From contig JAQSDB010000003.1 of NCBI GenBank assembly GCA_029945725.1, positions 251,842 through 315,841 on the forward strand: 64,000 bases of DNA, read 5' to 3'. Source of the stretch: a bacterium (GTDB taxonomy: Bacteria; Pseudomonadota; Gammaproteobacteria; Pseudomonadales; Moraxellaceae). Position 1 is the first letter of the stretch. Every line of letters starts with the position of its first letter. Of this stretch, positions 23,092 to 45,909 are shown piece after piece. The position numbers were made by a program, and so were the translations under genes. Below the pieces are notes generated by a model, which was not told the origin of the DNA, ran no database searches, and worked only from the letters and a program-made list of their open reading frames with translations.

Positions 23092-24204
23092 ATGTCCGAC
23101 TCAAACGCTCCCGATAATGCCACCCCGCCGGAAAAAGGCCTGGGCCAGTCCATGAAAAGCTGGTTCGCGCGCAAGCCTGCCGACGCCGCGACTACCGGCA
23201 ATGCCGGGACAGAACCTGTCGCTTCCGGCGTGGCGGTTCCAGCGCCAGCCCCCGCCGCAGTGCCCTCTGGTGGTGAAGAAGGCGGCAGTTTCCTGCAGCG
23301 CATGAAAACCGGGCTGTCGCGCACGCGCAGCTCCTTCAGCAACGGCATGGCGACCCTGCTGATTGGCGCCAAGGAAATTGATGACGAGCTGCTCGAGGAT
23401 ATCGAGACGCAAATGCTGGTCGCGGACATCGGCATCGATGCCACCCGCCGCATCATTGACGCCCTCACCGAACGCGTCGCCCGCCATGAGCTCACGCACT
23501 CCAACGCCCTCTACAAGGCGCTGCAGCATGAGCTCGCCGAACTGCTGGCACCGCAAGTCGCACCGCTGGTGATTGATACGACGAAAAAGCCCTTTGTCAT
23601 CCTCATGGTCGGCGTGAACGGGGTGGGAAAAACCACCACCATCGGCAAGATGGCCAAGCGCTTCCAGAAAGAAGGCCGCAGCGTCATGCTGGCGGCAGGT
23701 GATACCTTTCGTGCCGCGGCCGTTGAGCAGCTCACGGTATGGGGCGAGCGCAACAATGTTCCGGTGATTGCCCAGGCGGCGAACGCCGATTCGGCCTCCG
23801 TCATTTTTGATGCCCTCTCCAGCGCAAAGGCCAGGAACATTGATGTACTGATTGCCGATACGGCCGGTCGCCTGCACACCAAAACCCATCTCATGGAAGA
23901 GCTGAAGAAGGTCCTGCGCGTGATGCAGAAGATTGATCCGACGGCGCCGCATGAAATCATGCTGGTGGTCGATGCCGGCACCGGCCAGAACGCCCTGTCG
24001 CAGGTTCAGGAGTTTGACCAGGCCGTAGGCCTGACCGGCCTGACGATCACCAAGCTCGATGGCACGGCCAAGGGCGGCGTGCTCTTCAATATTGCCAGTC
24101 GCAGCAAGGTTCCCATCCGCTTTATTGGCGTTGGTGAAAAGATTGATGACCTCCGTCCCTTTGAGGCCCATGAATTTGTCGCCGCCCTTTTCGATCAGGA
24201 ATAG
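23092..24204 (+). CDS. ftsY: Signal recognition particle receptor FtsY
   Basis: 370 residues; the GTPase that docks SRP-ribosome complexes at the membrane. The first 75 residues are a variable Ala/Pro-rich acidic domain with an amphipathic MKSWFARK patch. The NG domain follows: G1 GVNGVGKTTTIGKMA, then GDTFRAAAVEQL, G3 DTAGRLHTK, and G4 TKLDGTAKGG, ending in GEKIDDLRPFEAHEFV. It heads the ftsY-ftsE-ftsX-rpoH cluster found in many gammaproteobacteria. Confidence 0.97.
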   Translation: MSDSNAPDNATPPEKGLGQSMKSWFARKPADAATTGNAGTEPVASGVAVPAPAPAAVPSGGEEGGSFLQRMKTGLSRTRSSFSNGMATLLIGAKEIDDELLEDIETQMLVADIGIDATRRIIDALTERVARHELTHSNALYKALQHELAELLAPQVAPLVIDTTKKPFVILMVGVNGVGKTTTIGKMAKRFQKEGRSVMLAAGDTFRAAAVEQLTVWGERNNVPVIAQAANADSASVIFDALSSAKARNIDVLIADTAGRLHTKTHLMEELKKVLRVMQKIDPTAPHEIMLVVDAGTGQNALSQVQEFDQAVGLTGLTITKLDGTAKGGVLFNIASRSKVPIRFIGVGEKIDDLRPFEAHEFVAALFDQE

Positions 24205-24328
24205 CCTCACCGCCACGGCAGGGCATTGCCCTGTCGCCGGTGACAGCTCATCCTGACCATGGAAGCGCGCTTTACGGTTTTATGTGTGCGGGTACCCGCA
24301 GCAACATGACATTCAAAGACAAGAAACG

Positions 24329-24991
24329 ATGATTGTTTTCAGCAACGTAAGCAAAACCTACCCCTCCGGTTTCGAGGCGCTGAAGCAGGTCAGCTTCACG
24401 CTCAGGACCGGTGAAATGGCTTTTCTCACCGGGCACTCGGGCGCCGGCAAATCCACCCTGCTGAAACTGCTCCTGCTGACCGAGCGCGCCAGCCAGGGCC
24501 GTGTCGACGTCAATGACCTGGATTACAGCAAGCTCAAAGGCCGCGCCATCGCCCATGCCCGCCGCCACATCGGCATGGTGTACCAGGACCACAACCTGCT
24601 CAATGACCGCAGCGTTTACGACAACGTCGCCCTGCCCCTCATCATCAACGGCCTGGATGCACGCGACATTCCCCGCCGTGTGCATGCTGCACTGGACATG
24701 GTCGGCCTCAGCCACCGCGCCAAAGCCTCTCCGGTGACCCTGTCGGGCGGCGAACAGCAGCGTGTCGGCATTGCCCGCGCCGTGGTCAGCAAGCCGTCTC
24801 TGCTGCTGGCCGACGAACCCACCGGCAATCTCGATCCCGATCTTGCGGCCAGTGTGATGAATATTTTTGAAGAACTGTCTTCGGTAGGCGTCAGCATTCT
24901 CATCGCCACCCATGATCTGCCGCTGATTGCCCGCTATCACCACCGCGTGCTGACCTTGCGCGACGGGCGCCTGACGGGAGACCAGCCATGA
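24329..24991 (+). CDS. ftsE: Cell division ATP-binding protein FtsE
   Basis: 220 residues; ABC ATPase that with FtsX regulates septal peptidoglycan hydrolysis. The ATG at 24329 gives the conserved start MIVFSNVSKTYPSGFEAL. Motifs: Walker A GHSGAGKST, Q-loop VYQDHNLL, signature LSGGEQQR, Walker B LLLADEPTGNLD, and the switch His in ATHD. It overlaps ftsX by 4 nt. The 124-nt gap after ftsY contains an imperfect hairpin (24206-24243). Confidence 0.96.
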   Translation: MIVFSNVSKTYPSGFEALKQVSFTLRTGEMAFLTGHSGAGKSTLLKLLLLTERASQGRVDVNDLDYSKLKGRAIAHARRHIGMVYQDHNLLNDRSVYDNVALPLIINGLDARDIPRRVHAALDMVGLSHRAKASPVTLSGGEQQRVGIARAVVSKPSLLLADEPTGNLDPDLAASVMNIFEELSSVGVSILIATHDLPLIARYHHRVLTLRDGRLTGDQP

Positions 24992-25935
24992 GCGGTGCGC
25001 GCAAGTCACGCCCCACCACGGCCAGCATTCTGGCGCACTGGCGCGCCCATCATGGTCGCGAAGCCCGCGACAGCCTGCGCCGCTTTGCCAGCACTCCCGT
25101 TTCCGCCACCCTGACCGTGCTCGTTGTGGCCCTGGCACTGTCGCTGCCCGTCTCGCTTCTTTTGCTGCTGGGCAATGCCGGACGCCTGACCACCAGCTGG
25201 GACGGGCAGGCACAGGTTTCACTGTATTTGCGCAGTGACGTGAGCACGGAAAAACAGAATGCCCTGCAAAAAGAGCTGGGAGCCCGCAAGGAGGTTTCGC
25301 GGGCCAGACTGATTACCCCGGCACTGGCACTCGACGAGTTTCGCCAGCTTTCCGGTTACGGCGAAGCCCTCAACCTGCTGGACAGCAACCCGTTGCCTGC
25401 CGTGATTGTCATCCAGCCCGCCGATATCCGTCCGGACAGTGTCAAGCAGCTGCGTGATGCGCTCGCAGGCTTGCCTGAAGTGGAAGCGGCCGATATCGAC
25501 CTGGCCTGGGTGCAGCGCCTGGCGGCCATCCTCAAGGTGGGTCAACGCCTGCTGCTGGCCCTGGCAGGCGCCCTTGCGGCTACCGTGCTGCTGGTGATCG
25601 GCAATACCATCCGTCTTGATTTCGAATCGCGCAAGGAAGAAGTGCAGGTACTCAAGCTGCTGGGGGCTACCGACGCTTTTGTCCGCCGCCCCTTCCTTTA
25701 CAGCGGCTTGTGGACAGGCCTGGCCGGCGGGCTGCTGGCCTGCCTGATGGTGGCAGCCTTCTTCCTCTGGCTGGACGGCCCCGTCAGCGAGCTGGCAAAG
25801 CTCTATAGCAGCACCTTCCGGCTCAACGGCCTGAATGCCCTCGACGTTCTTGTCCTGCTGGCGGCCAGCACCCTGCTGGGTATCAGCGGGGCCTGGCTGG
25901 CCGTCAACCGTCACCTCAAGGCCATGGAACCCTGA
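24988..25935 (+). CDS. ftsX: Cell division protein FtsX
   Basis: 315 residues; four membrane helices (about 45-70, 190-213, 240-262 and 285-308) with a large periplasmic loop after the first helix that in E. coli contacts the amidase activator EnvC. The conserved cytoplasmic-side stretch FESRKEEVQVLKLLGATDAFVRRPFL is the coupling region for FtsE. It overlaps ftsE by 4 nt, so the pair is translationally coupled. Confidence 0.95.
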   Translation: MSGARKSRPTTASILAHWRAHHGREARDSLRRFASTPVSATLTVLVVALALSLPVSLLLLLGNAGRLTTSWDGQAQVSLYLRSDVSTEKQNALQKELGARKEVSRARLITPALALDEFRQLSGYGEALNLLDSNPLPAVIVIQPADIRPDSVKQLRDALAGLPEVEAADIDLAWVQRLAAILKVGQRLLLALAGALAATVLLVIGNTIRLDFESRKEEVQVLKLLGATDAFVRRPFLYSGLWTGLAGGLLACLMVAAFFLWLDGPVSELAKLYSSTFRLNGLNALDVLVLLAASTLLGISGAWLAVNRHLKAMEP

Positions 25936-26034
25936 GCTGAAGCCCTGATTCCGGCACGGCGCAACGGGTCTGCCGCCTGATCGCCCGTGCCGGCCTCGTT
26001 ACAAAACCCAAGCAAAAGCCCCGGATACCCCCCT

Positions 26035-26061
26035 TTAGCACTCTCCCCCTGCGGGTGCTAA
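26035..26061. promoter_or_regulatory. CIRCE-type operator (HrcA site) upstream of rpoH
   Basis: TTAGCACTC (26035-26043), nine bases, then GGGTGCTAA (26053-26061). The CIRCE consensus is TTAGCACTC-N9-GAGTGCTAA, so 17 of 18 positions match and the spacer is exact. It lies 39 nt upstream of the chosen rpoH ATG. HrcA binds such sites and represses transcription until heat shock titrates its GroEL-dependent folding. The hrcA gene is not in this window. Confidence 0.82.
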
Positions 26062-26100
26062 TATCCGTGCATGCCCAATCCCCCTTGTAACGGAGTCTCC

Positions 26101-26958
26101 ATGATGAACAGCCCGCTCGTGCCGGTTGCCTTGTCGGTCCCCGGGATCAATCTGGGTGCCTATATCACCAATGTGAACAGCATTCCCGTGCTGTCGCCCG
26201 AGAACGAACGCGCTCTCGCCACCCGCTACTTTGAAGAAGAAGACGTTGATGCCGCACGCCAGCTGGTGCTCGCCCACCTGCGCTTTGTCGTGCATATCGC
26301 CAAGAGCTACGGCGGCTACGGCCTGCCGCAGGCGGATCTGATCCAGGAAGGCAATGTCGGCCTGATGAAGGCCGTGAAGCGCTTTGACCCGCGCATGGGC
26401 GTGCGTCTGGTGTCGTTTGCCGTGCACTGGATCAAGGCCGAGATTCACGAATACGTGATCAAGAACTGGCGCATCGTGAAAGTCGCCACCACCAAGGCCC
26501 AGCGCAAGCTGTTCTTCAACCTGCGCAGCAAGAAGAAAGGCAGCGGCCGCCTGACGGTTGCAGAAGCCCAGAGCATTGCCAGCGATCTCAACGTCACGCC
26601 TGACCAGGTGATCGAGATGGAAGGCCGCCTCTACTCCTACGACGCCTCTTTTGATGCATCTCCGGATGATGACGAAGAACGCGCGGGTACGGCACCGGCC
26701 TACTATCTGGAAGACAATCGCTACGACCCCGCCGTGCAACTGGAAGAAGCCGACTGGGAAGCCGACTCGACCGAGCGCCTGATGGATGCCATGGGCCAGC
26801 TCGATGCACGCAGCAAGAACATTCTTGCCCGTCGCTGGCTGGCAGAAGACAAGGCCACGCTGCATGAGCTGGCGGCTGAATACGGCGTCTCTGCAGAACG
26901 TATCCGCCAGCTGGAAAAAAACGCCATGGAGAAGATCAAGGCCTCGCTCACTGCCTGA
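26101..26958 (+). CDS. rpoH: RNA polymerase heat-shock sigma factor RpoH (sigma-32)
   Basis: 285 residues from the ATG at 26101 (GGAGT upstream). It directs RNA polymerase to heat-shock promoters. Region 2 is seen in LAHLRFVVHIAKSYGGYGLP and LIQEGNVGLMKAVKRFDP, the RpoH box is QRKLFFNLR (residues 134-142), and region 4.2 is TLHELAAEYGVSAERIRQLE. A second ATG follows directly at 26104. It ends the ftsYEX-rpoH block and is preceded by a CIRCE-like operator, so HrcA control of sigma-32 is likely here. Confidence 0.97.
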   Translation: MMNSPLVPVALSVPGINLGAYITNVNSIPVLSPENERALATRYFEEEDVDAARQLVLAHLRFVVHIAKSYGGYGLPQADLIQEGNVGLMKAVKRFDPRMGVRLVSFAVHWIKAEIHEYVIKNWRIVKVATTKAQRKLFFNLRSKKKGSGRLTVAEAQSIASDLNVTPDQVIEMEGRLYSYDASFDASPDDDEERAGTAPAYYLEDNRYDPAVQLEEADWEADSTERLMDAMGQLDARSKNILARRWLAEDKATLHELAAEYGVSAERIRQLEKNAMEKIKASLTA

Positions 26959-45079: not shown

Positions 45080-45310
45080 TCAGGGCTTTTCTGCCGGCGG
45101 AAGCAGGGCAATGATTTTCTGCACGCGCGCTTCGTCCACCGGCAAAGGCAGCTGCTCCACGGTTCGTGTGGTGAGGCGCAAGGAGCGAATGAACTTGCGA
45201 CAATGCCCGCACATCAGCAGGTGTGCACGCAGGACGAATTTTTCCCGGCCGCTGCCGGCGCCATCCACATAAACGGAGCCCAGGGCGAGTACATCACGAC
45301 ACTTCAGCAT
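45080..45310 (-). CDS. Zinc-finger anti-sigma-like protein (zf-HC2)
   Basis: 76 residues, overlapping the preceding sigma gene by 7 nt. HLLMCGHCRKFIRSL gives the His-x3-Cys-x2-Cys zinc-binding motif of zf-HC2 anti-sigma factors. There is no membrane segment, so it would be a soluble zinc anti-sigma factor of the ZAS type. Pairing with the ECF sigma is strongly supported by coupling; the inducing signal (often redox or zinc) is not known. Confidence 0.85.
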   Translation of the reverse strand: MLKCRDVLALGSVYVDGAGSGREKFVLRAHLLMCGHCRKFIRSLRLTTRTVEQLPLPVDEARVQKIIALLPPAEKP

Positions 45311-45909
45311 TCGCCCTCCTCCTCATAACGGTTGATGACAGCCAGCAGTTTCAGACGGGCACGATGCAACAACACCCTCACATTGGCCTCGGTAGTGGCC
45401 AGCGCCTCGGCAATGTCGGCAAACTCCAGCCCCGACTGGTCGCGCAGCAGCAGTGCACTTTGCTGCGCCTGCGGCAACTCCCCGAGGTAATACTTCAGAC
45501 AGTCTGCCAGTTGCTCGCGCGACAGCATCTCTTCCGGCGAATCCGCCACCCAGCTCGCCAGCGCCGGCGCCCAGTGACCGCTGGCGTCGAATCGCTCGGA
45601 CAACGGCAGATGATCCTCCGTTTCCACATCCAGACTCACCGTGGGCAGGCGCTTCTGCACGCGCAGCCTGCCACGGGCAGCATTGATCACGATGGTCGTC
45701 AGCCAGGTTTTCAGTGCCGAGCGCCCCTCGAATGCCGGCAGCGCACGGAAAGCGGCAATCCAGGCCTCCTGCACGATTTCTTCAGCCTGACCGTCGCCGA
45801 CAATGCCGCGCGCCACCACCACCAGACGACCATGGTTTTCACGTACCCAGGCCGTGCAGGCCGCCGGCTCGCGCCGCAGCAAACGCCCAATCAATTCCGT
45901 TTCGCTCAT
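45304..45909 (-). CDS. ECF (sigma-70 family) RNA polymerase sigma factor
   Basis: 201 residues. Region 2 includes VVVARGIVGDGQAEEIVQEAWIAAF and FEGRSALKTWLTTIVINAARG. Region 4 is SALLLRDQSGLEFADIAEALATTEANVRVLLHRARLKLL. The linker (about residues 80-125) is long. It directs RNA polymerase to an unknown regulon and is coupled to the zinc-finger gene by a 7-nt overlap. It is divergent from the flavoprotein gene at 46156, with a 246-nt region between in which I see no clear ECF -35 element. Confidence 0.9.
   Translation of the reverse strand: MSETELIGRLLRREPAACTAWVRENHGRLVVVARGIVGDGQAEEIVQEAWIAAFRALPAFEGRSALKTWLTTIVINAARGRLRVQKRLPTVSLDVETEDHLPLSERFDASGHWAPALASWVADSPEEMLSREQLADCLKYYLGELPQAQQSALLLRDQSGLEFADIAEALATTEANVRVLLHRARLKLLAVINRYEEEGEC

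Follow-up and report, generated by a model that had tools for sequence, protein, structure and literature searches.

Transcription of rpoH in Escherichia coli is driven by a sigma-E promoter, and post-transcriptional control of its product, the heat-shock sigma factor sigma-32, is the textbook rule, acting mainly at translation and protein stability. Within a stretch of 64,000 nucleotides from a member of the Moraxellaceae (contig JAQSDB010000003.1; hereafter, the window), a palindrome resembling CIRCE, the operator of the heat-shock repressor HrcA, lies in front of rpoH. The locus raises the question of whether one heat-shock regulator controls the gene of the other and, if so, how widely.

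The Palindrome and Its Gene

A scan of either strand of the window, with up to three mismatches permitted, returned a single CIRCE match, at positions 26035–26061. Its arms, TTAGCACTC-N9-GGGTGCTAA, agree with the test pattern TTAGCACTC-N9-GAGTGCTAA at 17 of 18 positions; the single difference is a G for A in the right arm. The spacer has exactly 9 nt. None of 100 shuffles of the window contained a CIRCE match. By simple counting, the expected number of matches as good is 0.0027 for the 3.34-Mb genome and 1.3e-7 for the 165 bp between the stop of ftsX and the start of rpoH. The features concerned, in the gene order ftsY-ftsE-ftsX followed by rpoH, are:

23092..24204, + strand, ftsY (TIGR00064, 362 bits)
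24284..24991, + strand, ftsE (TIGR02673, 289 bits)
24988..25935, + strand, ftsX, the upstream neighbor of rpoH (TIGR00439, 335 bits)
26035..26061, + strand, CIRCE operator TTAGCACTC-TCCCCCTGC-GGGTGCTAA (17/18; absent from shuffles; arms nearly invariant in seven genus members)
26035..26043, 26044..26052 and 26053..26061, + strand, left arm, spacer and right arm of the operator
26101..26958, + strand, rpoH, heat-shock sigma factor sigma-32 (TIGR02392, 399.1 bits; NF005143, 426.1 bits; both above cut-off)

The rpoH product belongs to the RpoH family by the equivalog model TIGR02392 (cut-off, 323.1 bits), and its ATG at 26101 lies 39 nt past the end of the palindrome. The scan and the model match together bear out the original prediction of a CIRCE palindrome with 17 of 18 arm positions and an exact spacer directly before rpoH; its further statement that no sigma-32 promoter lies nearby also held, none being found upstream of rpoH with three or fewer mismatches. 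As expected of a CIRCE operator, the palindrome occupies a heat-shock gene's regulatory region and has been conserved among relatives. Upstream of the operator, at approximately 25999–26008, the sequence GTTACAAAAC is kept in five of the seven genus members.

HrcA and Its Predicted Regulon

The genome from which the window derives (3.34 Mb, 99% complete) carries the hrcA gene that the proposal presupposes, in one copy (TIGR00331, 303.6 bits against a cut-off of 197; PF01628, 199.8 bits). It adjoins grpE and dnaK and is divergent from a recN-like gene, these three neighbors being named from their translations. The sole other CIRCE site in the genome with three or fewer mismatches, CTGGCACTC-N9-GAGTGCTAA, precedes groES-groEL, and the regions upstream of hrcA-grpE and dnaK lack a site (best match, at least six mismatches); the search for further sites suggested with the original prediction was hence positive for groESL and negative for dnaK. 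Because groESL has the only further good site, the HrcA regulon of this organism is predicted to be small, comprising rpoH and groESL. At groES, every copy of the genus operator seen (locus L003, 1501–1527, and loci L376–L378) has CTGGCACTC as a variant left arm, unlike the rpoH operator. A sigma-32 promoter on hrcA, through which feedback could act, was also considered; a match to CTTTATA-N14-CCCCAT is present in this genome, but it is conserved in neither the genus nor the order, and the idea was rejected.

Distribution of the Site and of hrcA

The family was taken as Moraxellaceae on the grounds that one member, G072, has an rpoH product with 97% identity to that of Acinetobacter higginsii. 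Among the 99 Moraxellaceae genomes sampled, CIRCE with no or one mismatch precedes rpoH in all seven genus members with an rpoH match (eight copies), 39–57 nt ahead of the aligned rpoH start, and alignment reveals operator arms that are near-invariant between a spacer and flanks that vary. No site was found near rpoH in the 89 rpoH-bearing genomes of the other 15 genera, coordinates being compared by eye. The distribution of hrcA is the same: eight of nine genus members possess it (the ninth is 82% complete) vs. none of 90 other family members. Genome G059 has two rpoH matches, one at C58:15641–16129 (locus L088), with CIRCE upstream of each; since this assembly is 6% contaminated, the second rpoH copy may be foreign.

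Beyond the family, 79 of the 294 order genomes and 226 of the 304 sampled from the class carried hrcA. Within the order, and at two or fewer mismatches, the site was found at rpoH in 48 of 52 hrcA-bearing genomes with rpoH vs. 1 of 26 lacking hrcA, and the class sample gave 55 of 64 rpoH loci of hrcA-bearing genomes vs. 0 of 13 genomes without the gene. With three mismatches permitted in a set of 165 genomes, the corresponding values were 112/119 and 1/46, counts that ignore kinship. In supported independent pairs, site and hrcA agreed in approximately 4.8 of 5 with none opposed, the value of p = 0.06 reflecting that only five supported pairs exist. Several of the 7 hrcA-bearing genomes (of 119) without the site have a divergent rpoH. 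Conversely, hrcA was not detected in G113 (locus L246), a genome of the order whose rpoH is preceded by a one-mismatch CIRCE joined to a sigma-E promoter; recent loss of hrcA or an assembly gap would account for this. Named rpoH loci with the site include those of Ketobacter, Halieaceae, Haliea, and Alcanivorax jadensis; the Acinetobacter, Pseudomonas, and Halomonas rpoH loci examined are without it.

The palindrome upstream of rpoH is thus conserved in relatives of the window's genome, namely all genus members with an rpoH match and most class members with hrcA, and a novelty specific to the genus was rejected given that the site recurs across the class. The proposal that the two heat-shock regulators are arranged in series gains from the presence of hrcA and the conservation of the site; what did not survive is its framing as a trait particular to this organism. 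Much of the class probably has one heat-shock regulator acting on the gene of the other. Among hrcA-bearing members this arrangement is probably the ancestral state; most Moraxellaceae, and further lineages including Pseudomonas, probably lost it along with hrcA.

An improbable alternative to such retention is joint acquisition of hrcA and CIRCE by horizontal transfer into the genus, followed by a recruitment to rpoH separate from that in other lineages. The restriction of hrcA to 1 of 16 genera of the family and the long stem branch (1.17) of the genus HrcA in the tree would be explained by such an event, but the genus HrcA falls inside the HrcA clade of the order (support 95), hrcA resides between recN and grpE-dnaK, the site is equally placed across the class, and some genomes without hrcA keep degenerate arms in register. 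Retention is consequently favored over distant transfer by the position within the order's clade, the exact place being weak and the stem long.

A Predicted Sigma-E Promoter Fused to the Operator in Relatives

The operator coincides with promoter elements, of the sigma-E type in relatives, a feature overlooked in the earlier reading of the locus. In these relatives, the motif (G/T/C)GAAC occurs 15–17 nt upstream of the operator at 47 of 51 rpoH sites in the order and 41 of 59 in the class, and since the spacer often starts with TAA, TCTAA is formed where the left arm meets it. Most relatives thereby have GGAACTT separated by 16 nt from a -10 element, TCTAA, that consists of the left arm end and the spacer start; GGAACTT-N16-TCTAA matches the known sigma-E promoter consensus. 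Sigma-E-like promoters were found at 40 of 54 loci in the order and 43 of 64 in the class (expected, 0.2 and 0.5, respectively), vs. groES sites, none of which has GAAC at the equivalent place (0/15) and where TAA is likewise absent. RpoE above cut-off was present in 30 of the 33 hrcA-bearing genomes of the order tested; two of the three exceptions, G267 and G136, are also without GGAACTT, and the third, G198, is without the CIRCE site. With the promoter fused to CIRCE and RpoE present, rpoH in these relatives has the predicted hallmarks of sigma-E-type transcription.

This overlap allows that the rpoH palindrome is mainly promoter, comprising a sigma-E -10 and a sigma-70 extended -10 that resemble CIRCE by chance, with no control by HrcA. 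Both arms do partly coincide with -10 elements, the T three bases past the right arm is conserved, and the sigma-E promoter survives in genomes without hrcA. However, those genomes retain the promoter and mostly lose the arms, the full 18 bases of exactly spaced arms occur almost only alongside hrcA, and a genus without the sigma-E elements keeps its arms near-invariant; chance resemblance is accordingly considered very improbable. In genomes lacking hrcA, where the sigma-E promoter often persists with degraded arms, a few keep arms of five to seven mismatches in register, which look like a decayed operator.

The Promoter in the Window and Its Genus

The region from the operator to rpoH in the window contains the following:

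26035..26040, + strand, weak -35-like TTAGCA within the left arm, with 18 nt to the -10-like hexamer (assigned from sequence)
26056..26064, + strand, extended -10-like TGC-TAATAT (TGCTAATAT), formed by the right arm and three further bases (TAT invariant in 7/7 genus members)
26071..26073, + strand, predicted transcription start and conserved in-frame ATG (alignment of seven genomes; ORF 26071–26958)
26092..26095, + strand, Shine-Dalgarno-like GGAG, conserved in the genus, preceding the second ATG of rpoH

Sigma-E promoter elements are missing here, GGAACTT being absent and TCTAA replaced by TCTCC, and RpoE above cut-off was not found in the genome. The same applies to the genus, where GGAACTT and TCTAA are missing and, among the members tested, only G027 has RpoE above cut-off. 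RpoE and the sigma-E elements have been largely lost from the genus, with TGCTAATAT kept invariant. The right arm and the three bases that follow read TGCTAAnnT, the last T of which is present in 98% of rpoH sites in the order and 91% in the class vs. 2 of 15 at groES; this pattern fits the extended -10 element of a sigma-70 promoter. By consensus the sigma-70 elements are weak, TTAGCA matching that of the -35 at four of six positions, and a sigma-70 scan of the ftsX-rpoH gap gave no promoter at the scan threshold, so that the promoter is inferred from conservation; it is most likely of the sigma-70 type. A search of the same gap for an intrinsic terminator found none. Elsewhere in the window, 45304–45909 on the minus strand encodes an ECF sigma factor of 201 amino acids that scores 83.6 bits with the RpoE model, far below cut-off; the genome encodes several paralogs of it and no RpoE.

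An in-frame ATG lies 6–7 nt past TAATAT in 7/7 genus members, at the predicted transcription start. Translation of rpoH may accordingly occur from a leaderless mRNA, giving an extension of 10–11 residues (26071–26100 in the window).

Proposed Control of rpoH

We consider it probable, at roughly 85%, that the palindrome functions as a CIRCE operator for repression of rpoH by HrcA, the bound repressor covering the rpoH promoter. Binding and repression are proposed on the strength of site conservation. Under normal temperatures, GroE would keep HrcA active and the repressor would occlude the promoter, which here would be the sigma-70-type extended -10 and, in most relatives, also the sigma-E promoter with its -10 inside the operator. 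Upon heat shock, HrcA would be inactivated, either by direct unfolding or by titration of GroE, and rpoH transcription would rise. Sigma-32 would then turn on the chaperone genes, and the additional GroE would restore HrcA and thereby shut off rpoH again. For Campylobacter jejuni HrcA, both heat inactivation and stimulation by GroE have been shown (PMC8533110).

HrcA might instead bind as a minor modulator, with rpoH governed chiefly post-transcriptionally through an mRNA thermometer and DnaK/FtsH-dependent stability. We regard this as unlikely despite the precedent of sigma-32 in E. coli: that the site disappears so closely with hrcA suggests that it matters, and no thermometer is evident, since the first 260 nt of the predicted rpoH mRNA show no better folding than shuffled versions (z 0.78). 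An RNA thermometer in these 260 nt was consequently rejected for want of excess structure.

Relation to Known Systems

The HrcA/CIRCE system at groESL and dnaK of the Bacillus subtilis type shares its repressor family, palindrome and spacer with that described here, and groESL has a site in both; the differences are that the target here is a sigma factor gene and that hrcA-grpE and dnaK lack a site in this genome. A further likeness is to Geobacter sulfurreducens, for which a perfect CIRCE was predicted 51 bp before rpoH (Rodionov, 2004; PMC545781); there, too, groESL has a site. That case concerns a single deltaproteobacterial genome, with a further site at hrcA-grpE-dnaKJ and fusion to a sigma-E promoter unreported (PMC545781). 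In Agrobacterium, as cited in PMC11764788, groE is under dual HrcA/RpoH control; going by that citation, the two regulators of one organism meet in parallel on groE, whereas here the gene for one carries the operator of the other. The E. coli rpoH promoter region is alike in having a sigma-E promoter, matching elements (GGAACTT and TCTAA) being conserved in relatives of the window's genome, but hrcA was not found in the E. coli control genomes and CIRCE control is hence lacking. Full-text literature searches returned no report of CIRCE at a gammaproteobacterial rpoH, although priority is uncertain. What appears new is that site and hrcA are linked across the class and that the site is fused to a sigma-E promoter; CIRCE before rpoH itself had been predicted previously, in G. 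sulfurreducens.

On balance, the composite of HrcA operator and sigma-E -10 seems the likelier ancestral form of sigma-32 control in the Gammaproteobacteria, joining cytoplasmic (HrcA/GroE) and envelope (sigma-E) stress at a single gene, with the mode of E. coli and Pseudomonas derived after loss of hrcA. The data suggest that, in much of the class, rpoH is repressed by a regulator responsive to GroE capacity, in place of or in addition to control of the E. coli kind; if so, repressor-type and sigma-type heat-shock control would constitute one circuit. The composite sigma-E/CIRCE promoter is a prediction directly testable in culturable bacteria such as Alcanivorax, and the rpoH operator provides a clear case of operator decay following the loss of its regulator. 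Across the phylum, 20 genomes of 397 show the composite pattern; most of them belong to this class, and the usual location is rpoH.
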